From Marchantia polymorpha subsp. ruderalis (taxonomy: Eukaryota; Streptophyta; Marchantiopsida; Marchantiales; Marchantiaceae), in NCBI GenBank assembly GCA_037833965.1, contig AP031351.1, positions 11,792,501 through 11,856,500 on the forward strand: a DNA stretch of 64,000 nucleotides, in the 5' to 3' direction. A program made the position numbers and the translations under genes. Under the pieces are notes generated by a model. The model ran no database searches. It saw nothing but the letters and a program-made list of their open reading frames with translations, and was not told the origin of the DNA. This document shows positions 4,932 through 60,200 of the stretch, in pieces (the stretch's first letter is position 1; every line of letters begins with the position of its first letter).

Positions 4932-6128
4932 CTGTTGAAGTAAGTTGCTCTAGGTTGCAAAGAACGAATTGCCAAGATTCATGCGGGCTTAAGGATAATT
5001 CTGGTACATATCTCTTTCGAGTTCAATCTGTTCACAGGTTGAGTCTTTATCGTCTACTTATTTCAGGCTTACTCTTCGGACGGGGGGAATTTCGCTGCTT
5101 TCATAATCCGTTTCAACGAAGTAGAGACAAAATAATTTTTTTAACGACATTTATCTTTCTCTTTCACTAGGCTAATTAAATTATTCTACTCCAACATATC
5201 TCTCCCCCCTAATGTTTCACTCGACATTTCGTTATCATGGAGAGACTTCGACAGTTTTTACCATGTCTTCCCCTTCGTTGACGAAGGGTAAGACATTCAG
5301 ATGCTAAATGCTCTTCAAAGATCCCCTTTTGTTTCCAACGAAGACACGACGATCATGTGGTATGACGAGGAAGTAAAGCGGCTGAAACCACTCACCGAGA
5401 GCATTTTCGAATACACATATGGTTCCCTGCTTTACGCCAATGTCAATCAGACTTCTCACATAAAGTCATCAAAATCCAAGCCCGGCTCAATCCCATACCG
5501 GAAGAGACAGAGGCAGGGTCGCAAGACGATAGAAAGCCTTTCAAAAGTAGGATAAAGTACTAATAATTGCAGAACAACAATAATTTGTTCAAACGACAAA
5601 TGTTTGAACAGATATAAGAACAGTGTTTACAAGGAATGGAATACCATCTCCTTTTTCCCGGAAATCAATACCCCAAGAATGGATTCAATAATAACCAGAT
5701 CAGGTTTTCAATGTATTTACAAGTCAACTTCCAAACTTCCGGCGGCGGAGTCCAAAGAGACAGATTGCGACTGGATTCTTTACATCGAGACTCCGTCTCT
5801 TATATACAGGCCCTGCAAGCTAAGCTACCCTTAGATTCGCAGTAACCATGATTTACATTAGAACGATAATAAACCTTCAGCGAAGGAAAGAGACAAAAGA
5901 TGGAAACTTGCCGGCCTCGATTCGCTAACGGGGTCAAACAGATCAGCCTCAAGCGTGTCAAACATCACACTCGGCCAGGTACGTAACCTATGTACACTAT
6001 ATAGACAAGGGCGACTATCACGACCGTGACTGCATGCGTCTCAATTACACGCAAAGAATCGTCAAATTACAGCCAGCTTTGTGGCTCTAAATCGAGGCTT
6101 CAAGTCTGCAGAACAGAAACTCATAAAG
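4932..6128. other. intergenic or intronic, unresolved
   Basis: Short frames at 5301-5555 and 5604-5845 on + are not matched to any family. On - there are exon-like snatches near 5400 and 5760. None could be joined into a gene model. The right end should hold the 3' UTR of the nuclease gene that ends at 6129. Confidence 0.3.
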
Positions 6129-9100
6129 TTAGATGCTAGGAGAAGTCACTAACGGTGCACATTTTCTCTGCTTTGTACCACTCAGATCAATGACTGCAGC
6201 ATTCTTGTACTTTTTACACACCTGCTTTTGCTGGCGCCTCTTCTTTGTCCTCAGCTGACTCAACTCATCTCTTAAGCGAGCTGTAGGAACAAGAACACCG
6301 TGAGAAAGTTGCTCCAACGAGGGCTTACAACAAGCTGTGCTGAAAAGAATTTGCCCGTCAGGCTGTGACGGGCAACTAGAATAGCCACCCTGGCGGAGTG
6401 GTACCGGTAGGAAGTACAAGTGCTATATTTGGGAAGAAGTAGGATTGAATGCAAAGGGAGTTCAAAAACGAGAGCACTATTAGAGAATGAAGAGGGTTGG
6501 TCCTCTGCTGGGACTTCTCACCATACACCAGTACTTAGCCAAAAGGTGGGTTGTTTTTTCTGAGGTGGAATAAAAGATTATTTCAATCACACCTGTGTAT
6601 CAATTATATTATCTCAGAGCCACTCATAGTGACTCTGAGATAATCTGATTGCTAGGTGAATTACCTGCGTCACTGTAGCGCTCCTCAATGGCAGCCATCA
6701 TCATGCTGCGCACGAGAACAAACTCCTCTGCTGCTGCACAGGAATCTGACTCGGGCCTGTGTGACACAGAAAAACCCATGAAGGTGTAAGACCCAACTTG
6801 TTGCTGTACACAAGAAGCGGGAGAACGGAAGAGAGATGCGTTGGAGATCAAGAAGTTGTTCGCAAATCGTACCTGTCCAGTTCTGTTAGCACTATCCCCA
6901 CATTGGCTCGCAGAGCACGAGATGGTAATCTGGCGGGATCATTGACAATTCTGACTCCGTCACCGTAGGCAAGCTCCCGGTTTACTTGAATAGGGATCTG
7001 CGTCACCATATCCACGATCAGGACGAGCCAGCCTTTGTTGACGGACACCGAACGAACTAAGATATCGCGGGTATGGAAGGAGACCTGTCCTAGTAGCAAG
7101 CTACGAGGTATAGTAGTTGCGATCTTCAGAAGTTTGAACTTGGGGACTGACGTGAAAGAAGAACAAAAACTTAACATGATTATAATGAAAATCATGACTG
7201 TTCAAGAACAGGATCGTAACAGGACACAACCAAAGTAGCCCTTTAGACAATTTTATACCTTGCATCGGATAGCGAGGTTGATGGCGTCCGATGGCCGCAG
7301 GTCCAGTGACACCATCTTCTGAGTTTCATCTCCCACCTGCGCAGAATAGGACTTCAACTCAGTCACAGGACGAATCATTGCAGACCACTCAGAGTCTTGA
7401 TTATTCCAGTTCAATTCAAATTCAGTTCATACCTTGGTGACATAAATGCGCGCATAGTACGCCTCCTGAACTCTCCGAGTTACCCGTACAAGCTTGGCCT
7501 GGAAAAAAGAGAGATTTCCACGTAAGTTTTATTTCCAATTTCGTCAGACAACTTACAACTGCTTCGCACAACGTCGAGCTTAGCTTAAAGTTTAAACTGC
7601 ACCTCATAGCCCATCAATTCGAGCATATCCTTCATCACTTGGTAGACTGTTGGTCTAGCCTGCGAAAAAACACCAACGAAAGGCGCAATTAGGATGCTGT
7701 GTCGGCGTTTATCGCAGTCCAACTGCTGACGAAGATATTCACCATCTTGCTGACAACTGTGCAAAGAATGGCTATGCTTCCAGCACCTAACGATCAACAG
7801 CATATAGACTACAAGACAACAACGTCCAAGGGCAAGATGCAGAACGGGGAACGTTCAGCCGGAACTCAGATACATACCACTTGGACGTTTCGTACTGCCT
7901 CCATGAGCATGGTGCTGGGCAACTCCACTGTCAAAGGTGCAATCAGAGGTTAAGTCACGTCCCTCAGAGAATTGTAATACAGACGTACTTCTATCAGCCT
8001 CGAGCACAAAGGGGAAAACAAGAAGGCCGCATAGTGAAGAGGTTGAGGACCCAATTGACATGTGAATTGCAAGCACCTGTTCATTATGAATGGGAACGGG
8101 TTGCAAATACTCACAAACAATAATGGGCAGCAACAAATCGCTCCCATCCTCCATCTTCAGCACGATAGCAGGCTGTGGGGCATAATCTGGAAGATGTCCT
8201 CCTTCCGGGTTGTTGTGAACGCACTTCACAAATCTTCCATCGCGCATTTTGATGAGAAAGCCTTCAGACCCGCTCTTCACCTCCACTGCACACACGTCAT
8301 CGTCCGAAACAAGTTGAGAGGCTAGGGACAGACACACATATGAAGCCATTGCTGACGTAGAATACGAAATTGCCCGACGCCATAGCCTACGAGATCATGA
8401 CAAGTTTACAGCAACCTCACGGCCCGAAATGATTTCAAACCAATTTCCCGGAAAATAAGGAACTCTGTGGTCGTAGAGCACGTAGGAGAATTGAGGCACG
8501 TCAGGTGACTATTAAAAAAGGGTCTGGACGCTTAGGTTGTCTCGATCAAGGCCGATAAAAGTTCCAGCGCGTTCCAAGACAGAATTGCGGAAATGATAAA
8601 ACTTGCGCAATTTCGGTTACTACTACTGCCGCTCTACCGTGAACTTTTCGTATCCGTGTCCAACATACATGTCCGCATCGAAGAAATGCAACTCGATTGC
8701 CAACGAAGCATGACATTTAGGGGGAGAATTCACTCCGGCATCCCGAGAAGAAAACAAAATCTAGAATGAAAACCAAGGAATGCTTTGCGACGAGTGGGAC
8801 AATAGGAGAGACCAGAAAGGAAAACATGTGCCGAAACTCGAAAGACAGCAGAGCACCGATCAAGACGCGCAAATCTTGTCTCTTAACAAGAATGAAAGGG
8901 CAGTTTCGCGTCGAGGGCCCCCAATTGGGCCACTCGGGGAGCACTACGAGGACGAGGCGCAAGTCTCACCAGCTTCGACCACGGTCGAATCGACGTAGTC
9001 CTCATCGTTCTCGCTGAACCCGGAATCGGCAGCGCTGCTGCCATTGTTGAAAGACATGCTCGACTGACACTGAGATGTACGACTCTCCGTCCGCTCCCAC

Positions 9101-16479: not shown

Positions 16480-18565
16480 CTTCCACGGAGAAATACACTC
16501 AGAGAGTTTACTATTTTAGGTGAAAACATAAGATAACCCACAAAAGCATCAGGGTATATATATCCAACGTAGGCGACCAATTTCAGCTATAAATAAGTAC
16601 ATATGAGGTTACTCATTATCCGAAATTAATCTCAACAATCTTCACTTAACTTGTGTTAAGAAATATCAATAATTTCTTTAATCAAAATTATTATTTCCAT
16701 AACAGTATAGAGTAAAAACATAAAGAAATAACTCAACAATCTTCCGCTTAACTCATGTTAAGAAATCTAAGTAACCTCTCCTATATAATTACTCAACGGA
16801 AAGTTCTAGATGACTTAATTCTAGTTAATTCAAAAATTAACTAGAATTAAGTCGTAGCCATAACATGAAAGAGTTATAATATGCAGAGGTAATTAAAAAT
16901 TTTATCTCTTGTGCTCCATATACACAACTTGCATAGTAGTATAGTGTAGCATGAAACTCTTTAAAGGAATAACTTTGGTCAATGCATAAGTTCGATTGAG
17001 TTTTAGGGTCAATATCGTTGATATTGATTAGCTCAATTGTCTAATAAATTGATACTTGATGTCGATGTGCTTTATTCCGCTATCCATGACTTGATTTGCA
17101 GCCAAATGTAAAGCACTATGGCTATTATAATAAAAATTGACCATGCCTTGTGTCAATTCCATCTCCATGATAAGCCTATCCAACCAAATAGCTTTCTTTG
17201 ATGCTTCTACTACTGCCACATACTCAACTTTCGTTGTTGATTGAACTACACACTTTTGCAAGGTAGATCTCTAACTAATGCCAAGTATAAACACATATTC
17301 ACTTGTAAACTCCTTTTGTATAAATTTTGTCCGTAGTCATCATCAATGTAGTCAAACAAGGACTTAACATTTTCTAATAATCCATCAAACAATAAGTCAT
17401 AATCCACATTACTCTTTAGATATCTTAGGATCCATTTCACTTTTTCCTAGTGAACCTCATGGATTCGACATGTACCTGCTCACCTTCCTCGTTACCAAAG
17501 CAATATCAGATCTAATGCATATCATTAAATACATGAGGTTGACTACATCTTGTTCATAGAAAACACATGACATTCTTTCTTTCTCCACAACATTTGTAGA
17601 ACATTTAGCTGCGGAGAATTTAAAATGTGATGGCAAAGGAGATCATACTTCTTTCAAATCGATCATGTTTAACCTGTCAAGTATACGGCTAACACACACT
17701 TGCCCTTACTCAATCATAGCTTCTTCTCTTCAAAATTCCTATAAATATTCATGCATAATATTCTCTTTGACTCCCCCATATTCTTCATCTTAAATGCAAA
17801 CTTGAGCTGACTCTTGCATTCATCGACATCAATATTTGCCAAGATGAGCATGTCGTCAACGTAAACTTCTAAAATGATAAGATTGAACGTTTCATCATTC
17901 ATATTCTTCATGTAGACACAAGGATCATACATGCTTAGTAGAAAACCTTGTGCATTCATAAACTCATCAAAACGTGTATTTCATTGCCTAAACGCTTGTT
18001 TAAGTCCTAACATTGATTTTAGCAATCTACAAACCAACCTCTCATGGCCTTTGACCTTAAAGCCAACTAGTTGTTTTATGTAGATCTACTACTCCAAATA
18101 TCCATAAAGAAAGGCCGTAATCACATCCATTATGTGCATAACAAGACTGAATATTGTGGCCAGTGCACATCTTAGACAAATTGTAGCATACTTTGCAACA
18201 ATCTAAAAAACTTCGTTATAATATACACTCTTTGACTCTGTGAAACCTCTAGTCACCAACCTGGCTTTGAAGATTCTTGGCTCATCTCCTACTAAATTGT
18301 CTTTCAACTTGTATAGCCACTTGAAGTCAATCAGTGTTTGATCTTTATGAAGCTCAACGAACTCCCAAGTCATGTTGTTGATCAGTGATTGCATCTTCCG
18401 CTCCATAGCAGCATTACACTTAAGCTTGTTGATCAAAGCTTGAGTTTTCCTATATGAAGAAGATTCATTTTTTTCCAAAATCAATGCCATATCATCCTCA
18501 TACTCAAAATCAAGGTCACGATCTTTGAGAATGAATGAGTTGGCCCCATACACCAAATATCTCAA
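16480..18565 (-). mobile_element. Ty1/copia retrotransposon fossil A (partial)
   Basis: - strand fossil with parts in copia order: reverse transcriptase pieces at 18203-18565 and 17714-17959 (VYVDDMLIL), the RT-RNase H linker near 17246-17440 (MKWILRYLKSN), and RNase H at 17028-17261 (VEYVAVVEASKKAIWLDRL, then KHIDIKYQFIRQLS). An LTR-like stretch follows at about 16480-16637. It is similar to the LTRs at 46027 and 48406 and ends in the same ctcaacaatct word. Gag and integrase are not seen next to it. It is broken in many places and old. Confidence 0.8.
16812..16853. repeat. perfect inverted repeat (19-bp arms, 4-base loop)
   Basis: Arms gacttaattctagttaatt (16812-16830) and its exact complement (16835-16853) flank caaa. 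It lies between RNase H and the LTR-like end of copia fossil A. The homologous stretch in the nested element near 46310-46345 keeps only the right half of this word. Confidence 0.85.
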
Positions 18566-18746
18566 GAGCTCTACTATGACGTTATGACGTTTTTGTTTGA
18601 TCTTTCTTGTCTGAACTGTTGCAATAGACTCACCAACAATAGCTTGGTTTTGTAGTTGCTATTGCTCAAAAACTTGCTCCACATGCATCGATGCTTTGTC
18701 ATTTGACAGATCATTAGTGATGGAATGATCAAACTTCTCCACAAAT

Positions 18747-37774: not shown

Positions 37775-39195
37775 CTAGCGACGACACACCAAACCACCGG
37801 ACCTCGCGTTTCCGCAGGACGCAGATGCAGCTTGCCGGATGGTCTGGCCCGAAGGGGTGGCACCGAACTTCGACACGGCGCAGTCGGTCTGGAACAGCGC
37901 CGAGGAGACGTAGCTCTCGTCGCCGCCCATGATTGGCATCGGGACGCCCACCTTCACGGGGCTCTTGTAGCCTGGGACGTACGTCTGACCCAGGATGCCA
38001 TTCACTTCTGTCGAGAGGTTGAAGAACTGGAAGTTGAGCTCCAAGTGCGCGAAGCAGTTCTCGGCCGTGATGTCGTAATTGTGTATGCGCGACTCCTGCT
38101 TCGTTATAGGTACGACATGCGCCTCCAACTTGAAGCTCCCTTTAACCTACACGCACGCACCCATTTTCTCTTCCATGTCAGCCACCTCCCTCACGTCCCT
38201 CTTTGTTACCAACGAAACCAGAAAAAAATTTTCACAAACTCGATTGCTCTGACGTAACAGAGTGATCGACCCATGGTTGCTGTTCTAGCCTAAACCCGGG
38301 AGTTGGTTCGACAACAGACGGTGAAGTGAGTGAGATGGCCCATCTCAGCTCGAGATTAGCACAAATAAATTCCACAAATCACCACGGTCCCATCAGCGCC
38401 CATCGATGTTGTCGAGGTGGCTGCGTCGTCATGGGTTCCGATAGGCAGTTGAGAGTAGCCAATCGTGGACAGCATGATAGAATGTTGAGACGACGGGTTT
38501 GGTTTGATTTTACATCAACTCACTTGCATAGCACGAATTTGGATGCGACAGAACGAAGACGAGAAACGAGGAGTCGACGATGAGCAAGGAGTGGTGTCAG
38601 GTTGATTAGTTGAGTGTAAGTGAGGAACCTGCTAAGAATCAGTTGAGTGCTATTCTGGCAGAGAACTGAGGCATCGACCCTGCAACAGGCATATTGATTG
38701 GAAGCAATGGCATATCACTGACCGGAGAAGAGCACCAACTACGTGCGCTGTATTGGGCTCCGGTGGCACACAAAGCGAGAAAGCTGATTGAAAGGATCAA
38801 TGTCCAGCGAATAGAAAACGAGAAAGGGAAACAAATAACGATCTTTACTTCTACAGAATTTCCACAATTTAAGCTAGGGTTAGCCGGAGTGCTTTGAAGG
38901 TTGAAGTAGATGAAGGTTTCCTCGCAAAAGTTTTCCGAGCAGTCAGAGAAAGAAACGCCAGATGATACGAACATGCTTCTCTAGGGATCGTGGATTGTTA
39001 ATGAGAGGAATCGAATTGCACGCAAGGTGTTGATCCAGTAGAAAGCTGCGCATCTTCTCTTGAGGAATTTTGAGATATAGTAGAGAAATAGCTACTTCCA
39101 AGGTATGGTTCAACTGGTCTACGAGAATCAGTGCTAGGCAGGTAAATGTGTCCGACATCGAGTTGGAGCAAAATGGACGAAATTCAATCGTGCCC

Positions 39196-39293
<98 letters not shown>

Positions 39294-40632
39294 TGTCACC
39301 TCGACCGTAACAGCATTCTTTCCTTCGACACGAACAATTTGAAGCCCGGCATCTGGAAACTCGAGAGTGGCATTGACTCGGGGCGGCAACAGGAGAGGCT
39401 GGCCGTCGAAGGACAGGGAGAGAGCATCGACGTGATTGTCCCAGGTGCCGACGGTCTGAGCTCCGATGTACAGAGTGCGAGAGCCGAACATGATTCCCAG
39501 AGACTGGACCCACGTGAAATCGCGGGTCATGCCCGAGCCCCTCTTGCCGATGAAGTGCGCATTGATGTGCAGGGCCGGGTCCGACACGATGCAGAAGTCT
39601 TTGTCCTTCTCGCCGTGGAAGTAGAACATCACTCCGTCGCCGCCGATGAAGCGCGGGTCCTGGCAGACTGCGCCGGGCTTGTCACAAGCTGTAGTAACAT
39701 CATGCACCAGCTGTGAAGGTATCAGCGGCAGCGTCTGTATACATCCGTCAATCAATCACTGACACACTCGCTGCTGCATTTCCTTTAACAAATGGAAGGA
39801 AGCAAACAACTCAAAAACGTCTGAAATTTCCAAGGCAGCCATTGCCGCCTCACTCCCACCCGAGAGCGAGGCATTTCTTCGTGTGCTCCTGCTATTCTGC
39901 CCTCGAGCTATGCCCACAAAATCATCATCTCACAATCGACTTCTTCCTGGCTCTAACTCGGTCCTCCGTCCGAGCTTTTCCCTTGAACCATGCCGTCTCC
40001 AGCAGGCTCTGGGTGGCCCGACCCCAACAACGAGGAAGACCTTGCTCTGAGAGTGATGCTTTAAAATTTGGGGGAAAGCTTGCACTGTCCAGTGCAGGTA
40101 TACACACCTTGCCTTCGGGTTCAGACAATCAATGTATAGTGTGATTGCTAGTGGAAGTCATGAAGGGGACTCTGGCGTTGAAAGAGTCCAGGATTCTCTC
40201 CTGACAGAAGGCACATTGGGATGGCAGTGGACATTTCATCCTATACTTCTCATGCTTCCGTGAGCTTATGTAAGGAGCTCGTCAATTTCGAAAATTGAGA
40301 TGCGGAAACGTCACCGCAAAGAGTGGCCGTGCACTGAAATTCAGACAGGGATTTTGCGATTGCCACGAACAGAGTCACAATCGAACCAGACGAGGAAGGA
40401 CCTTTTGCCTGAGAGAAGATGACGGAGAAGAGGAATAAGGAAGTCACTCACCGCATTGGACGTTGCAAGTGGTACAGTCCACCTCGCACCACTGGGCGCA
40501 GTTGGCCGGGCAAGTCTGCAGCTGACCATAGCATTGCGAGTATGGATTCGAGCAGCTGACACTCCAGGCACCCGTCTTCGAGACCAACGCAGCTAAGAGG
40601 ACGAAAACCGTGCTCAGGACGACCGCCGCCAT
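37775..40632 (-). CDS. secreted root-cap/LEA-like protein (Root_cap family)
   Basis: Three - strand exons: 40452-40632, 39300-39688 and 37775-38146. Total 942 bp (313 aa), in frame at both joins. Residues 1-22 form a classic signal peptide (MAAVVLSTVFVLLAALVS). A Cys-rich segment follows (CSNPYSQCYGQLQTCPANC), then the Root_cap/LEA-like domain with DPRFIGGDGVMFYFHG, KDFCIVSDPALHINAHFIG, RDFTWVQSLGIMFG and, in exon 3, ESRIHNYDITAENCFAHLEL and GVPMPIMGGDES. The family is land-plant specific, secreted and cell-wall associated; biochemical activity is unknown. Apart from the Cys module it is close to full length for the family. Intron 2 begins only seven bases from a very long CT tract. Confidence 0.93.
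39198..39291. repeat. GA/CT microsatellite, about 47 units, inside intron 2 of the root-cap gene
   Basis: Uninterrupted ga dinucleotides on the + strand (ct on the transcribed message). It ends seven bases from the 5' splice site at 39299. On the - strand the exon frame runs through it as Leu/Ser repeats, but splicing at gtgaca into VKGSFKLEAH matches the family, so the repeat is intronic. Confidence 0.95.
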
Positions 40633-43417: not shown

Positions 43418-46400
43418 TAGAGTTGATTTATATTGTGACAAGTTAATCTCAGAATAAAATAGTAACATTAAAAGTATAGTAAAATCACACGAGAGGATAT
43501 GATATAAAACGCATCTACGCGGTTCACCTGGACTTCATCCACGGTGGAGGAAAAACTTCGATAGAATGAAGTTCTCCGGACAAAACACCTAATGCCAACG
43601 GGTTTACATAGTGGCAGCTCACCTGATCACTAACTAGATATAGCTAACCAGGGATTAACTCAAAACCCGAGTTAAACCCTAAAACTTACTAGAGTTATGT
43701 AAAATTTTATGAGCGAAATTTTAAGAACGAACAAATAAAAATGCACAAAATATTCATATATACGCGGTTAGTCTTATCCAAGCTACATCCATAAAATGTA
43801 AAAACGTAAAAACATGTTGTTTTTCTGAAAACCTAAAATATTGTTTGAGTTGTAATATGTCTCTTCTACCGATATAATGGATAGAAAAAATCCTAAATCC
43901 AAGAAAGGTAATTTTAGGTAAATTGACTAAAATTAATTTTAACTTGAGTTTATACTAACAGTATTCTACTTCATTCATGTTGTGAAAAGAACATAGTATA
44001 CTCCTTCCATAGTGCATATATTATTTTGCGGTAAGTATACAAGGAAATTTAAAATGGTATACTTTTTGAATTAAAGCTAATTAAAACTAAACTATATTTA
44101 GAAAGGTTATAAAATAAAAATAAATAGAGGTAAAAAAATTGCAAGTAAATTTTATTTGTATTCCTCATGCAAAATCTGCATAGTAGCACAATGTATCTTA
44201 AAATTTTCCAAAAAAATAAGTTTGACATTAGATTTATATTAGATTGAATTTATCATCAATATAGACTAGCTCATTCCTTTTTATTAGAAATTGCAATCTT
44301 GATATAAATTTATATAATGTCAATGTGTTTTATTTTTTTGCTCATTATTTGTTTTGCGAAACAATTTAACACACTCTGCCTATCAAAATAAAAATTAAGA
44401 TTTTGCTACATATTTAGTTTTCATTTTGAACTAAATTATTCACTTTTGCAAAATAGATCTCCAATTAATACATTCATCATCAAGTGTAAACACATAGCTA
44501 TTTGTGGATTTTTTTCCAAATCTTATCCATAATCAACATCAACATAGACTAGCAAGAATTTGACTTTGTTTAAAAATACATTAAACAAAATAAAATATTT
44601 TTTATTACACCTCATATATCTAAAAATTCCTTTCATTGCTTTTTATATTTAATGTGTACTTGTTCACCTTACTCATAGTTAAATCAAAATCAAATCTTGT
44701 GCAAATCATCAAACATATGAAGTTACTCATAACTTGTCATAGAGCTACTAATGATATCTTTATTTTTGAATGCCATCAGTTGTAAATCAACTGAAAAGTT
44801 TGAAATGTGCTGCCAAAGAGGTTCATCTTTCTTTAGAGTTTGTCATGTTAAATTTTCAAAGCGCACATTGAACATACTTGCTTTGATTCAACCATAGATT
44901 TTTCTTTTGCAAATTCCAATAAATAATCTTTTCTAATCTACTCATATCTTATCTAGTTAAATGTAAACTTTAGTTGTCTCTTGCATACTGATTTTCTTTA
45001 TCAAAATCAGCATGTCATTCACAGAGATAGATACTAAAATAATAAAATTAATGACCTTATTATTAACGTTTTTTGTGTATTCATGGATCATACATACTCT
45101 GTGAAAATTTTTGTGCTTTCATGATACTATTAAATATTGCATTTTACAATTTAAGATTATTTCAATCTATATAATAATTTCAGCAATCTATACATCAATT
45201 TTTCTTGAAATTTTTCTTCATGTGATTTTTTTTCTAAATATTCACAAAAATTATTGTAATTATATCCATCAAATTCAAAAAAATTAAATATTGTAGCAAA
45301 TACACATCTCAGTCGCATTGTAGCATGTTTTGTTACAATTAATAAAACTTTGTTTTAGTTCATACACTTTTCATGTGTGAAATCTCTAACCATCAACCAG
45401 GCTTTGAGTTTTTTCTTGTTTTCATCTGCTTGACTGTGATTAAGTTTGTAGACACACTTGCAATTAATCAAAGTTTGATTACCTTGAAAGCTCTATTAGC
45501 TCATAGGTTATGTTATTGATCAACCATTGCATCTCACACTTCACAAAAAAAAATCATTTAATCTTATTGACAAAATTTTAGTTATTCTATTGGAAGAATC
45601 ATATCATTCATGATCAACACAATATTATAATCATCTTCAGCGCTAATATTGATCTTCAACAATGTTGAATCAATCCATAATTTATACTTTACTATCCCAA
45701 TTTGATACTCTCTTGGTAGACAATTTTATTTGATCACTATTGTTTGATGCAAATATATGAGTCTCACAATAAATAACATATTCTTCTCATTTTTGCTCTT
45801 AAAAAATTTTGCTTCATTTGTATCAAAGCTCATTTTTATTGAGTCACATTATTAATCACACAACGAACAATCTTTTCAAACAACATTTGTAAAAGAAGAT
45901 TTATCTTTGTCAGTACGAGAAGCTTGAAAAATCTTTATTTCTTTAACTAATATGTAGACTAAAAAAAACATATCAAAAGATTGTAACGTCAAAACACGCA
46001 AGTGACAGGAAACATGCGAGACAATATGTAACGTGATTCACCCCTTGAATTGACTATGTCCACCAAAAACACGCTGCACTTTTTCTCACAAGACTTACTT
46101 CATGTACAGGCAGAAACCGAGTATTTAATTCTAGTGTATACAAACTTTCTAGCTAAATATAGCTAGGACTTGAGGTGACTCATTAACTGAAGTTAACCTC
46201 AACAATCTCCACCTTAACTCATGTTAAGGAAAGAGTAAACTCTGTAATTTACATTATTACTCTGCGGTAAGTTCTAGGACAAAAACCTAACACAAGGTCT
46301 TGTCTTTACATGAGAGTTAACTAGAATTAAACTGTAGCCATAACAAGGTAGAGTAATAACATAAAAAGGTAACCAAAAATCTTCCGACTAACTGTCATCC

Positions 46401-46599
46401 GTGATTGACTCTCATCGTTGTCCACAATTCACTATCATTGTCGCTCGCGACTAACTGCATCCGCAATAGACAGTTATTGTCATCCGCAACTGATCGTGCC
46501 CGCAACTAGTTCTCACCGTCGCCTGTGACTAACTGTGCCCATGACGAGGCGGTCACCGCTCGGGAGGCTCGGCCCAACCATGCGACGAGTAGAGGAATT

Positions 46600-47195
46600 A
46601 GGCCACGCGCCGCTTGGCCCGGCCCGCCAAGACGCTATTTTTGCTAGCAGTCTATTGGTGGCGATTTTCATTGAGTAGATATAATCGAGCTCACTTCGAG
46701 ACGCACTTCGAATCTTTTCAATGATAATTATACCTGCCGGTATCCTTTGATCATAAGAATTCAGTACAACCAGACTACCGTTGAACACTATCATTTTTTA
46801 TATCTCTTCTTGTTTCCAATAAGTTGATGTAATTTTTGATCCAAGTTACTGCCTTGAATCATCATCTTTTTCACCCTGCTAATAATGTCCAAGTATGCTT
46901 CGTTGATATTTGCTTTCTTGCACAACTGAGAAAACCGTTGATATATCTTGAACACGGAAGCTGAGGCCTGCCAATATTTTTCCAATGACAGTTTTGTGTG
47001 ATCTCTACTCGTATCATCCACATTGCCACTTCCATCATCAATGACTTCAACGTCCACTCATATAAGCTATGGACACTTTTTGATAGTCTGAAGTACACTC
47101 TCATGGCGAGTAATTCAAGCAGCACGAGTTACATAGTTGATGGCAATCAGCCTTTCCCACTATTGTACAGCCAAAGGAACCTCCCTTAGAAAACC
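46600..47195 (-). pseudogene. captured DNA polymerase eta (Y-family) fragment inside element C
   Basis: On the - strand, pieces follow the order of plant Pol eta without introns: RLIAINY and TRHESV (family: GLIAVNYEAR, VTRHMRGDEA), then LEKYWQASASVFKIYQRF and NEAYLDI (family: YRxAGxEVxxIL, ASIDEAYLDL), then IRSASRSELDY and ATNRLLAKIAS (family: SAGIAHNKMLAKLAS). It spans about 190 residues of the palm and finger region. Lack of introns suggests capture from an mRNA, and it lies in the same orientation as the element. It is degenerate and, being part of a fossil, not expected to make protein. Confidence 0.65.
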
Positions 47196-47332
47196 TAGCC
47201 TTACATGCTCCAAAGCGATGTCAGCATCGCAATTCGTATTCGGGTTGCCATTGCTGTATCCTGTTCTAGAGGATCACGCCTAGCACTGCACCTCAAAAAC
47301 TAGCTTGCTGCGCAGAAATAACTTTGAATGCC

Positions 47333-47581
47333 TCACACTTCCTCCACTCCGATTGGAGCATCTCCGATACAATAGCTGGTTTCATCACCGATAGTATCAT
47401 TGGAAACTCCGGCCGATGAGGATCTGAAGTGCCTAAGAATACAAAAGGCATACGGGCCATTGTTCACAAACTCTCCTTGAAAGGTCTTGTTATCAAAAAC
47501 AAATCTTGTGTATTCTTTAACATCCACAATCACAAATTGATTATATGACAGCGAAGAAGAAAAGATACTCGTCCCTTTCAA
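47333..47581 (-). other. unidentified open frame inside element C
   Basis: An 82-codon - strand frame (starts MKGTSIFSSSLSYNQFVIVD) between the Pol eta fragment and the right LTR. Composition is protein-like. It is not the Pol eta N-terminus and not a copia gag I recognise. It may be a second captured host fragment or an element-specific leader. Confidence 0.3.
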
Positions 47582-50360
47582 CCAGCAAAAAATGTTTCAT
47601 TTAACTGCTCCAATCTTCTCTCCCAGCTATCATGGCTCATACACATGACAACTTCCATCCTTCTTCAAATACTAATAAGACGAGTGTAATCAAATTTATT
47701 GTGCCTTTAAAATCCACTCGATAATTGCGTGTTGTTAAACTTGATCAAGGTAATAAAAGTTTCAATTTTGCCCTGAACCAAACTAGCTATCTGACAAAAG
47801 AATTCTCTCATCCTAAGCCGCACAACAGTACAGAAGACGATGCTTCATGCGTACGAGGAAACACATGTTCATCGGAGAACGACAAAAATGATAAAAAAAT
47901 AGATTAGAGATCTCACCGTACTATTATATACACACACAATTTCAAATCACTGTATGTGTAGCAATTTTATGAAAGAAAAAACATTGCCACAAACATAATT
48001 AAAAAATTGTCACTCATTCATAAACTTGTTAGAACACACATCACCCATTAGAAAATTTCACCATATAAATTTTTCACTTTCAAACTTCTGTCAGTTTTAG
48101 TCAAAAGATCATCATCACGTCTAAAAAATAATCATTAATAAATTTCACCCTAAAAAACCTTCAGTAACATAAATAACTGTCAAATAACAATTCGTCATTG
48201 TTGTCTTAGAAAATTTTGAGATTCACCAGAAAAATATCACTGTCATCAAATTTTTGTCACAATAACGTTAGCTGTTTCATCAACGGAGAATAACAGTGTC
48301 ATAACCCAGATCTTTTTCAAAAGGTTTAAAACCAAAATCATCACAAACTCCAAACCAAAATTTGATGTGAAACAAAATCCGAATCGAAATTGCTTTGATA
48401 TCAATTATAACGTGGTTCACTCTTTGAACGTGCTACTTCCACCGCGAACACGCTGCACTTTTACTCACAAAACTTACTTCATGTACAAGCAGATGTCAGG
48501 TATTTAACCCCAGTGTAGACGACTGTTCTAGCCAAATATAGCTAGTACTTGAGGTTACTTCTTATCTAGAGTTAAACTCAACAAAGACTACAACATTTCA
48601 AGTTACTAGATTTCATAGCTTATGATATTTTGATATTCAAACATATCTAAGAATATGAATCTTCTTGGATGTAAGTAAGATCCAACTTGATACTATTTAA
48701 CTTTGATATAAAACTAAAATTTGTAAATCTAAATTTTTTTGAATAATTGTAATCAATCCTACGTTTGTGTTTGATTTCAACTGAATGAAAAAATTGATTG
48801 CAATAAAGTTTAAAAATTAATTCAAATAAACTGAAGAATTGAAAATTTTAGTTCAAAATTCATATGACTAATTAGACTTTTTCAATAAAGTGCTTCAATA
48901 TCATTTGATTGAACTGCTTAAAAACAACATTTTGTTGTGGAGTATTGATTATGATGAGTTGAAACATAATTCTTTGTATGAACTTTAAAACTCTTGAAAT
49001 ATATACTTCTTGTCAATATTCGTACATAGATATCTCATCTTTTGTCAAGTTTAAATTTGAACATGGACTTGCACATTTTTAGAAATTGCAAAGATTTTAG
49101 ACTTTTGTGTAAAAAATAAAGTGAGAAAAAGTTTTTATTCATCAATAAAAGATACATAGTACAACTTTTCAATAGAATGAATTTTTGGAAGAGTATTTTC
49201 ACTATTTAAGTATGTACATACCTATGTACATATTAAATAACTCAAAATTGTGAGTACAAACATCATAGATTTGCCTCTAATGTATGTTCATAGAGTTTTA
49301 AGACAATTATAACAATGCCAAGTAACAAACTCATATCGTCGAATTGTGTCAAGCATCTATAACGCATGTTTCATAGCCTAGAATGTCATAAAAAAAACAT
49401 CTCAACTTAAAATTTAGTAAAATTGACTTTACAAAAAATGATAATGCTCTCTAGCCTGAATACATTGTTGTGCTTGTGACCTCTTAACATGTCAGGGTCT
49501 GGGCAAGTCATCTCAAAAAATTATATTTTAGGCTCTGCTTCATAAGTGTTAATAGTCCGATCAAATTACTTAGCTCCAAGAGCAAGAGAAGTTTATCACA
49601 TATTACCACCTCAAGCACTATTTTTAAAAAAAAAAAACAAACATTTCAATATACATAGATTTAATAATTTCAATCTTACAAGACTTATTTTTTTTTAATT
49701 AATCATTTAATACTAAAAAATACCAAATAATGTTTTTAAATTGTAATATATTTGATAAAAAAAGCACTATTTAGAATACATACATCACAAACATTACTTG
49801 ATTTGTTACAGAGGGCATATCTTTGACATCATAGATCATATTCAACCAAATCATACTCCTTTTGATCAAACTCTTTAGCCTCATTGACTATAGAGAATTA
49901 GCACATTTGATATTCATATGTCAGTACTTTTTAACGTGAACAATTATGACAAAATTGTGTCAAGATTGGTCAATATATCATAATCTTTCTCTCTAGAGAT
50001 GTATCCATACACTTGGATTTATTCTTAGATCTAACAATCTTGTTATTCTTGTTATTATTTGAATATGATCAATCTCAAGTCAAATTCAATGCCTTACAAA
50101 AGAAAAGAATGGAAAAAAGGTCGAAATAATTTTATGTTGTATATAATTAATTAACAAAGCACTTATCATTTCATGGTAAGTGATAATTTGCCGATCAAGA
50201 TGAAACAACACGCATGACAAACATTGATTTGAAGCAGATAGTGAGCTCAAAAAATTGTAGACTTTTTTTGATTGGTTTTTGATTGGTATTTTGAAGCCAA
50301 TCACAAGATCATCAAACATGTCAATGTGATGTTGAATCTTTGTATCAAAATCTTTCATCT

Positions 50361-57233: not shown

Positions 57234-60200
57234 ATGATGCCGGCGGCGGCAGCAGCAGCAGCAGGTAAGGGTTTTGTCCCAGGCAGCCCACCTCCGGCCG
57301 AGAAAGTGAAGTTCACAGTGTCGGTGCGCGGCCACCAGTGGAGCTCCGCACGGCATGTCTCAGAAACGCTGCAGGAGTTCGCCAGAGTCATCCAGGTACG
57401 TCCTCGTCGATGAATTTGGCAATCCGGCCCCGAATTGCGCCCATTCGAGGACAATCAGTGAGAGATGTGAATTTCCGTTATTTGCGACCGCCTGCACAAC
57501 GGATCCGCTCTCACCTCGCAGCGATGGCGGGCGGGCGAGCGAATGGTCAGTGCAGGCGCAAGCTAACGGGAGGGAGGGATGTCGCGTGCAGAAAAATGCT
57601 CGACGCCTGGTCTTCATCGGCGAGAACGACAGCATCCAGCGGCTACAGCTGGCCAAGGCGGACGGATCCGAACCCGAAGAATTGGACGTGGACGCGACGC
57701 TGGAAGATGTGATCATATGCATGGGCAACAAGCATCTGGTGGCCATCATTACGCCCGCCGGCAAGCCCAGCGGCAATGGCCGCCCCGAAGCCGCGAATGA
57801 GAAATTGGGGCCGACGTCCCCGATGGCTGTGTCCAGCCATCACCAGAAGCCCAAGCTTCGGAAGGACGTAGCCAGTTGCTATGCCCTCCCAGCGACCCCC
57901 GCAGCTCTGACTGCCGAGGATTCCGACCTTGCCACCTTCGGGCTCGCGTCCCGAGTGCCTCCGTTCAAGTCGAACTGTGAGCCGCCTGTGCGAGGCCTCA
58001 AAATCACCATCCCCTCCTCAGACCCGATCCCTGCCGCCTTCCACGACGAGAGAAATGTGTTCGGGCAGGACTCGGGCCTGGACCAACGACCGCCCGTCGT
58101 TCCCCAGGCCCCGGCCCTGGCGCCAGCCTCAGCCTCGGCCCCGGCCCCGAGAGCGAGCGCCTTCATTGGGGAGATCCTCAGCAGCAATAACAATAACAAT
58201 GCATCGATCCCGGGAGCAGTCTCGAGCTCCATCTCCACCCCCAGCCCGGCAGAGCTTGCCCACTTTCTCGTGAAGGGATCGTCTCTGCCTCTGAGCCGAC
58301 CGAGCGGCGGCATGTGCCTGAACAATCCGATGTACCCGCCGTGTCACAGTGCCGGGTTCCAGACCTTCGCATCGGCTCTCATCAGTCGACTGCCGGTGAA
58401 GGCTGCGAGCAATGCAGCTTGCCCCTCGCCCCAGCCCAACATCGCGCTGCTGGTTCAGTTCCTGGCCTCGCAGCTGCGAGCCTTCATCCCCGTTAGTGGA
58501 GCCCAGTCCTCGCCGAACTCGGCCCCGCGCTCTCCCAGCGGTGCCCGCAGCAAAGCTTCCACTGTTGAGGTCGTTCCTGTTGCCACCAAGCCTGGGGACA
58601 TGAGTCGCTGCCAGACTGGAGATAAACCTTCGGAGAGGCCTTGTTCCAAAGAGTTCCGTGAGGGCCCCGACACTGAATCGCCTAAGCTAGCATCCGATCA
58701 CGTGAAGGCCTCTGTCAGCGAGTCTCACGAAAAAGATGACTCCTCGTCCTCTGCTAATGTAAACACCACCGCAGCACCATCGAGTGATGGCCTTGAAAGT
58801 GAGACCATGCAGGACAGATCAGAGCTTATTTTCCTCGTGAATAGAAGAAGCAAGACGGTGGGCACTAGTAACCTCATCCTGACCTCTCAGCCCGGTACAT
58901 TCATTCCTGCTTTATCTTAATCGCCCACTCACAAATTGCCTCAGTAAATCAAACTTTCGTGCCACAGGCAGTTATCACCACCGATGATTGTGAGTACCTG
59001 CGGAACCCTTGATGTTCAGTAGGGAATCAGCCATTCAGTCGTTCTCGTTTTTCTTCTTATGCATCCATCTGTTGTACCTTTTGATTCTGGCAAATGTCTT
59101 CGATCTCCCATCCCCCAGTGCACACTGGCAAAAACCGCCTGTTGGGAGATGTTGTAATTCTAGAAGGCATAGCGCGCTCTAGCTCCACAAGCAATGTTGT
59201 AACGGATTTTCGCAGATGGTAAGACCGGTTCAATCGGGTCAAGGTGTGGCCTCAGATGTCAAATTCTTGCCAGATAACTTGAATTTCAAGGCGCCTGCTT
59301 GTTGTTGCAGGGTGTGGGAACACATCATCTGAAGCTGTCAGATCTATCGGCGTACTTTCATCTTAGCGTCGTGGATGCAGCGAAAAAGCTTGGAGTCTCC
59401 CAGACCACATTGAAGAAGGCGTGCCGCAAGTTCGGTCTCAAACGGTGGCCAGGACGCAAGGTAAATCGTGGGTCGTGCTCTTTACTGCAAGTGTTCTCCG
59501 TTCCTTCCCCGGTCGATATTCTTTTCCATAATAGAACTCGGCGCATAGTCAGCTCAAACAAAGAGTCACCAATATCAGATCTTCAGGCTTCTGAAAAGTT
59601 GAATATAGACTCATCGCTGTACGTGCACATTTTAGCTGCTCCAGGCGAAGTTATGATGAAAGTGGGGGCCTCGGCTGGAATGTCTACGGGAGGGCACTCT
59701 CTCCGCAAACTTCACGCCTGTACTGTTGTTATATTGCAGGTTCGAAGTTTAGAAAGCACCATCCATGGGCTCGAACATACCATAGCGGTTGGACAAGGGG
59801 CGGGCATGGAAGAATTGACTGAGGCATATATGAGATCGGAGGTTTCTAAGCTACAGCAAGAAATGGACCAACTTGTGCATGGTACTCCCCCCCAGGTAAG
59901 CCATGAGTGTTCGTGTCTTCCGACTGACAGTTGCCAGAAATTTTCTGAGTCTGATTGCCAAACTGCGACCAAGAGGTCACTGCCGGGCACATTGTCTTGC
60001 GTAGGCAATAGATCTCATTCACGTGTGTGGACCGCGTGGAAAGTGACGATAAACACCTTTTGACAGCGTGTTTGTGTCTCCTTACAGCAGCATTCACCAG
60101 TGGCCAGAACAGCAGATTTGTACAAAAGGCTGTACTCCAGAGGATGGAGGTCTAAGTACCACAGTTCCTGCGGTCGATTCGATCTGGACCTCAATATGGA

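Follow-up and report, generated by a model that had tools for sequence, protein, structure and literature searches.

Pack-MULE and Helitron capture gives chimeras of several host gene pieces at the DNA level, and these have no long terminal repeats (LTRs). It also carries introns, unlike capture by LTR elements (PMC4717578). Two LTR elements have been described as holding pieces of several host genes. Maize Bs1 contains pieces of H+-ATPase, xylan endohydrolase and beta-1,3-glucanase genes and was reported as transcribed and translated (PMC13317346), and it captured exons only (PMC4717578). Also, the soybean terminal-repeat retrotransposon in miniature (TRIM) GmaRetroS15 combines the 5' untranslated region (UTR) of one gene with an exon from a second and the intronless exons 5-9 of a third; gene-carrying TRIMs measure 1,172-1,449 bp and mostly multiplied after capture (PMC4717578). 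Surveys of rice and sorghum describe host genes inside LTR elements as common (PMC3726574). In this work we describe an LTR element of the liverwort Marchantia polymorpha subsp. ruderalis, located on the minus strand at 45982-48583 (2,602 bp) of a stretch of 64,000 nucleotides, hereafter the window (assembly GCA_037833965.1, contig AP031351.1, forward-strand positions 11,792,501 to 11,856,500). We found that it holds at least four host segments, all in sense orientation, with sources on four contigs: the polymerase comes from C7, a GH5 cellulase from C9, a malate transporter (ALMT) from C5 and a phosphatase from C2. In our view it is very probable that spliced host mRNAs were joined into this non-autonomous element by template switching during reverse transcription, and that the mosaic then moved.

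The polymerase piece and its host source

The host genome searched comprises 241 Mb in 9 contigs, and the window lies on C2. The original prediction claimed about 190 residues of Y-family polymerase resemblance, in sense and without introns, and our analysis bears this out. In a genome-wide profile search the similarity of the window to Pfam IMS goes beyond chance (51.7 bits, E 1.3e-11), and a single window open reading frame (ORF) gives 24.6 bits, the cut-off being 23.2. Of the 8 IMS matches returned, one is the window element, one lies on C8 and six fall in three loci on C9, C4 and C7. Among these three loci, only the one on C7 (L024) matches the element at the DNA level. Its exons align consecutively to the window copy with 77-89% identity, and identity between the polymerase pieces and the host is 83-84%. 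Compared with solved structures, the product of the C7 gene gives 139 bits with human Pol eta and 107 bits with Pol iota. On these matches we take the Pol-eta-like gene on C7 to be the source, so that the prediction of a DNA polymerase eta fragment stands in the form of a Pol-eta-like source and has to be extended by three further host genes captured alongside. The genome seems to carry two Pol-eta-like genes that differ in type, L024 on C7 and L023 on C4, the latter presumably Pol-eta-like from its motifs. As a candidate source, L023 was rejected: it gave no DNA match, and its tblastx similarity to the C8 copy was weak.

The polymerase piece covers ~586 bp (46630..47215, minus strand), with 195 host codons comparable. 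As a captured Pol-eta-like transcript it consists of the last 2 nt of exon 1 (47215-47214), exons 2-6 and the start of exon 7, free of introns, with exon ends in the element at 47076, 46968, 46875, 46745 and 46669. In the window copy 5/5 exon junctions fall on GT...AG introns of the host gene, and all 5 introns between exons 2-7 are absent. A second copy of the element, on C8, has 7/8 junctions clean on host GT...AG introns. Both copies together lack 8 distinct introns, which measure 138-348 bp in the host, and 12 of their 13 junctions are clean; at these, 12-16 of 16 flanking bases match, with a junction script that preferred GT-AG within ~8 bases. Since the host exons are joined where the introns lie, the element was fed by spliced RNA. 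These exon joins and the second LTR-flanked copy support what had been proposed from the window alone, namely that a small non-autonomous LTR element captured a Y-family polymerase at the RNA level.

The other host pieces and the copy on C8

Three further host pieces precede the polymerase in the sense of the element, all on the minus strand. Part of a GH5 cellulase exon (47216..47332) matches C9:18208398-18208609 with 87% over 119 columns, and the source ORFs carry PF00150; in the C8 copy this piece matches the C9 source with 84% over 212 columns. The ALMT exon 1 region, that is, the end of the leader and the N terminus (47359..47657), matches C5:19461910-19462216 with 83% over 307 columns, at a locus whose downstream ORFs match PF11744 and whose exon 1 ORF itself has no Pfam match. 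Between these two pieces lies a remnant (47333..47361) marked by a ~178 bp internal deletion relative to the C8 copy. The outermost piece (47655..47938) corresponds to sequence lying before the coding region of a dual-specificity phosphatase gene (C2:18828096-18828392; 76% over 298 columns; ORF with PF00782), reaches 85% over 144 columns in the C8 copy, and from its position would be the 5' leader of that gene. Intron absence was computed for the polymerase piece among the four host segments. We read by eye short shared sequences at three joins: AGCTG at the phosphatase-ALMT join (AGTTG in the element), GCTGAGA at the repeat-GH5 join in the C8 copy and a single G at the GH5-polymerase join. 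This last join as one exactly at a splice site is ruled out, 2 nt of exon 1 preceding exon 2. For a piece of ~33 nt that follows the ALMT piece, three candidate sources were rejected against shuffled sequences: ALMT downstream sequence (score 10, shuffled maximum 14), the repeat L041 (11, maximum 12) and L028 (11, maximum 15).

A genome search for other copies with the same interior found, among the matches scored, a second LTR-flanked copy, on C8 (L009). It is ~3.8 kb long, and its LTRs of ~300 bp are 80% alike, with a Kimura two-parameter (K2P) distance of 0.221. Its pieces stand in the same order and share the same GH5-polymerase junction with the window copy. Such a common order and junction between LTRs indicates that the mosaic moved after forming. 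In the C8 copy polymerase similarity continues through exon 10, while the window copy ends in exon 7, and the C8 copy additionally holds ~100 bp of a 1-kb repeat. This repeat lies at four places, on C7, C5, C2 and C8 (L041-L044), where L041 is 96.5-97.3% identical to the other three. Both copies also share a GC-rich stretch without a source match (46550..46627, minus strand; 73% with L009:3227-3302); as a genome query, its C8 version matched itself only and also missed the diverged window copy, so that the sensitivity of that search is limited. Judged by the LTR distances (0.257 for the window pair, 0.221 on C8) and the distance between the two polymerase pieces (0.249), both copies inserted long ago and at roughly the same time. 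With 1.3e-8 substitutions per site per year, a rate for rice that lacks calibration in this host, their age would be of the order of 10 million years.

Element boundaries and related elements

In its own sense, the window element reads 5' LTR, primer site, leader, cargo (47938-46630), GC-rich piece, 3' region with polypurine tract and 3' LTR. The predicted LTR-like repeats and Met-tRNA-type primer site are present, with primer site and polypurine tract correctly oriented; the predicted bounds, 46027..48583, had to be corrected at the 3' LTR end to 45982. The direct repeats (46029-46226 and 48408-48605) are 76% identical, and the LTR pair reaches 78.7% over 178 aligned columns (K2P 0.257). By repeat comparison the 5' LTR (48406..48583, minus strand, 178 bp) is truncated at its U5 end, and because its last ~45 bp are missing the 3' LTR was at first ended at 46027. 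However, the LTR of a related element, L012, aligns to 46206-45960 with 72% identity, which extends the window 3' LTR past that point. From its similarity to both the 5' LTR and the L012 LTR, the 3' LTR spans 223 bp (45982..46204, minus strand), and the element then has two LTRs with TG...CA ends. The flanks AAGAT (45977..45981) and AAGAC (48584..48588) agree in 4/5 bases with the end at 45982, of two ends tried, and in 1/5 with the end at 46027 (by eye). They probably represent a 5-bp target duplication, being good, not strong evidence of one, and its apparent absence would be an artefact of the wrong 3' LTR end.

The primer binding site ATTGATATCAAAGC (48392..48405, minus strand) has the right orientation for a minus-strand element, and we take it to be of Met-tRNA type by the motif TGGTATCAGAGC. 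It is followed by an untranslated leader (47939..48391, minus strand), with only short partial matches elsewhere. At the other side, the polypurine tract AAGGTGGAGAT (46205..46215, minus strand) adjoins the 3' LTR, and purine-rich tracts occur at the corresponding position of L012 and of the C8 copy. Seven of the 13 element ORFs were compared with Pfam and no pol family was found among them, in agreement with the predicted lack of recognisable pol genes; two match IMS (one below cut-off), and one of these also matches CENPH, below cut-off. In the element, found without pol, only the primer site and the polypurine tract would suggest an affinity with copia. Elsewhere in the window, a 151-aa ORF (18203-18658, minus strand) resembles by eye part of a copia-type reverse transcriptase, and two degraded stretches (16540-16903 and 43939-44139) are similar to the LTR plus 3' region of the element. 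An ORF at 59278-60063 (plus strand) shows by eye what we take to be an RWP-RK-like motif, and a long dinucleotide microsatellite lies within a large ORF at 39138-39755.

The LTR and 3' region recur many times in the genome, in counts that are lower bounds. With the element as query, where 40 of 889 candidates were scored, there are at least 53 matches, the majority of which cover the LTR plus the family-specific 3' interior region (46205..46386, minus strand) with 74-86% identity. Additionally, the primer-site pattern of the family gave 31 genome matches and 0 in a backward control, the diverged window site not being among the 31. Twenty of them were taken as loci (L047-L066), of which L047 was excluded, being identical with the L012 element. 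An ORF survey of 1.5 kb per locus on the interior side yielded 64 sense ORFs of at least 60 aa at 18 of the 19 loci (none at L050), and five of the 64 match Pfam at E<=0.01: DUF908 (L064), OATP and DUF7772 (L052), Lip_C (L053) and TrAA12 (in an untraced ORF), the four traced matches all lying below the family cut-offs. Among 35 of 68 ORFs of at least 70 aa from 16 loci, of which nine minus-strand loci were sampled outside the interior side, one matched RVT_1; no ORFs of this length were listed at L054, L061 and L065. Host cargo was recognised in 2 of the 19 primer-site loci and in L012/L047, which is a floor since ORFs miss stop-rich pieces and each locus was viewed over no more than 1.5 kb.

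Three other cargo sets were found in these relatives. A 2-oxoglutarate dioxygenase gene of C8 (PF14226 and PF03171) is represented by a piece in L012, whose LTR pair has a K2P of 0.076, and in L011; a 1.1-kb jump in it occurs at a 7-nt direct repeat and not at GT-AG. In L011, the stretches 5637-6045 and 7753-8162 are direct repeats, 98% identical, perhaps from a nested insertion splitting the element. L064 (C5:734352) holds pieces, at 85-87%, of a gene at C5:30122732-30126459 with DUF908 and DUF913, domains known from plant ubiquitin ligases of the UPL type. Three of these pieces adjoin one another in the element, and in the host gene ~1.0 and ~1.6 kb separate them. The UPL stretch recurs at 75-77% at C4:25997706, C4:1526308, C5:5245296, C4:3084481 and partly C9:17964161, and at L068 and L070 LTR similarity is found where the match of the UPL stretch starts. 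In the UPL-carrying element, one join links a host GT donor with a CAG that lies within a downstream exon, one extra base being present, and another lies off splice sites. The third set derives from C5, where the source gene encodes an MFS-type transporter (84%, PF07690); a piece of it is found in L052 (C2:21730118) and L073 (C8:11690447), and as the source is one long ORF, introns are uninformative there. In addition, L052 contains part of a C3 locus, in which 195 bp of host sequence are missing at a join that is not GT-AG. LTR similarity of the relatives to L012 is 63-78% over 58-258 bp, which suggests related elements rather than one tight family. By analogy, the cargo of these relatives is likely of RNA-level origin; exact intron removal is seen for the polymerase only. 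As the three other sets each occur in at least two copies in related elements, they support repeated capture, and we lean towards one related set of LTR elements repeatedly taking up host transcripts, with at least four cargo sets (phosphatase-ALMT-GH5-polymerase, dioxygenase, UPL-type, and MFS plus C3 piece), all in sense and each in at least two copies.

Origin of the mosaic and comparison with described systems

The most probable explanation for the mosaic begins with a small non-autonomous LTR retroelement relying on the enzymes of another element. Pieces of several spliced host mRNAs would be taken up while the element RNA is copied, with the reverse transcriptase switching from one co-packaged RNA to another where they have short sequences in common. 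The product would hold the phosphatase leader, ALMT exon 1, a 100-bp repeat piece, the cellulase exon and the polymerase exons between LTRs. This mosaic then moved at least one more time, which produced the copies on C2 (window) and C8. The segments, their order and sense orientation, the absence of polymerase introns, the shared junction, the two LTR-flanked copies and the frame decay are observed, and we infer from them that the RNAs were co-packaged and joined by template switching, and that the element was mobilised in trans.

Several observations weigh against this explanation. The exon 8-9 junction of the C8 copy matches in 7/16 flanking bases, the start of exon 9 is absent and the exact join is unreadable, and the joined host model is sound to exon 8 only, its frame being lost from exon 9 on. 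A primer site is not recognisable in the C8 copy, where the phosphatase piece abuts the 5' LTR and the site appears to have been lost or replaced. Target duplications agree in 3/5 bases on C8 (CATAC/AATAT) and in 2/5 in L012. In the relatives the joins examined include no exact GT-AG join, and no source was found for the ~33 nt after the ALMT piece. Also, the micro-identities at the joins, read by eye, may be due to chance. Finally, ALMT similarity in the C8 copy ends at an apparent exon 1 donor, compatible with splicing and with jumping alike.

This last point would also be expected if host DNA had been captured with its introns, and splicing of the element RNA followed by reverse transcription had removed them. 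All segments being in sense, their introns would be spliceable, and the UPL-relative join at a GT donor resembles aberrant splicing. However, such a course requires separate DNA-level fusions from four contigs, neither copy retains a polymerase intron, the GH5 piece breaks within an exon and the polymerase begins 2 nt inside exon 1, and we regard it as unlikely. A processed pseudogene of a chimeric transcript, made by a long interspersed nuclear element (LINE) and inserted into an existing LTR element, would likewise be intron-free. But one insert holds pieces of four unlinked genes, is common to two copies and lies between LTRs in both, its polymerase piece ends within the coding region, and no poly(A) was seen in the adjoining stretch viewed, where no systematic search was made; this origin seems very improbable. 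Equally doubtful is that the cargo acts through RNA, with element transcripts feeding small RNAs that silence host genes: the 83-84% identity to the polymerase gene is all that would favour it, and at that identity few perfect 21-24-nt matches would be expected.

The coding state of the cargo bears on a possible protein product. Each polymerase piece has 5 in-frame stops, the one at codon 50 being common to both, which suggests that this frame had been disrupted before the mosaic ceased to move; the window piece also has one 1-base deletion. The ratio of nonsynonymous to synonymous changes (dN/dS) between the window and C8 pieces is 1.08 over 186 codons, 9 stop-bearing codons being set aside, and those of the two copies to the host are 0.88 and 0.77, the host branch being constrained. 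From this decay, the cargo of both copies appears dead and without present protein function. Least probable of all, and hardly credible, is thus that the mosaic encodes or encoded a chimeric protein under selection, as proposed for maize Bs1: the GH5-polymerase junction is in frame in the C8 copy (AADIA then VEHVRLG), but the shared stop, four more stops per copy, the window frameshift and the dN/dS of 1.08 speak against it.

LTR-element capture of several spliced transcripts is a known route of gene shuffling, seldom resolved to junctions. Here, four sources, absent introns, three joins with shared sequence and cargo-bearing relatives in one genome make template switching directly examinable. 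If repeated capture is true, these related LTR elements preserve, in a plant that is not an angiosperm, a natural archive of template switching. They are also a warning, since annotation may count such stretches as additional polymerase, ALMT, GH5 or UPL genes. Among the open-access papers listed in our literature searches, none reports LTR gene capture in a liverwort or the capture of a Pol eta gene. Nevertheless, the original prediction of a gene-carrying family not described before fails at the level of kind, as Bs1 and GmaRetroS15 are published.

Pack-MULE and Helitron captures are likewise multi-gene chimeras; they carry introns and lack LTRs, and Pack-MULEs have terminal inverted repeats, whereas in our element no inverted repeats of at least 20 nt were found at the ends and the polymerase introns are not carried. 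The rice and sorghum passages stay at survey level and come without junction anatomy (PMC3726574). The window element is of the same kind as Bs1 and GmaRetroS15. As far as the passages on Bs1 go, both share several host-gene pieces between LTRs, intron-free (here in the polymerase piece), and the mosaic moved after capture; Bs1 differs in its genes and its three sources, compared with at least four sources plus a repeat piece in the window/C8 mosaic, whose cargo is broken, so that the expressed chimeric frame of Bs1-like elements is not found (PMC13317346; PMC4717578). In size, our copies (2,602 bp and ~3.8 kb) exceed the gene-carrying TRIMs described, while LTRs of 178-300 bp do fit (PMC4717578). 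The soybean element GmaRetroS15 differs in its host and has a nearly identical layout of 5' UTR, exon and several joined exons (PMC4717578).

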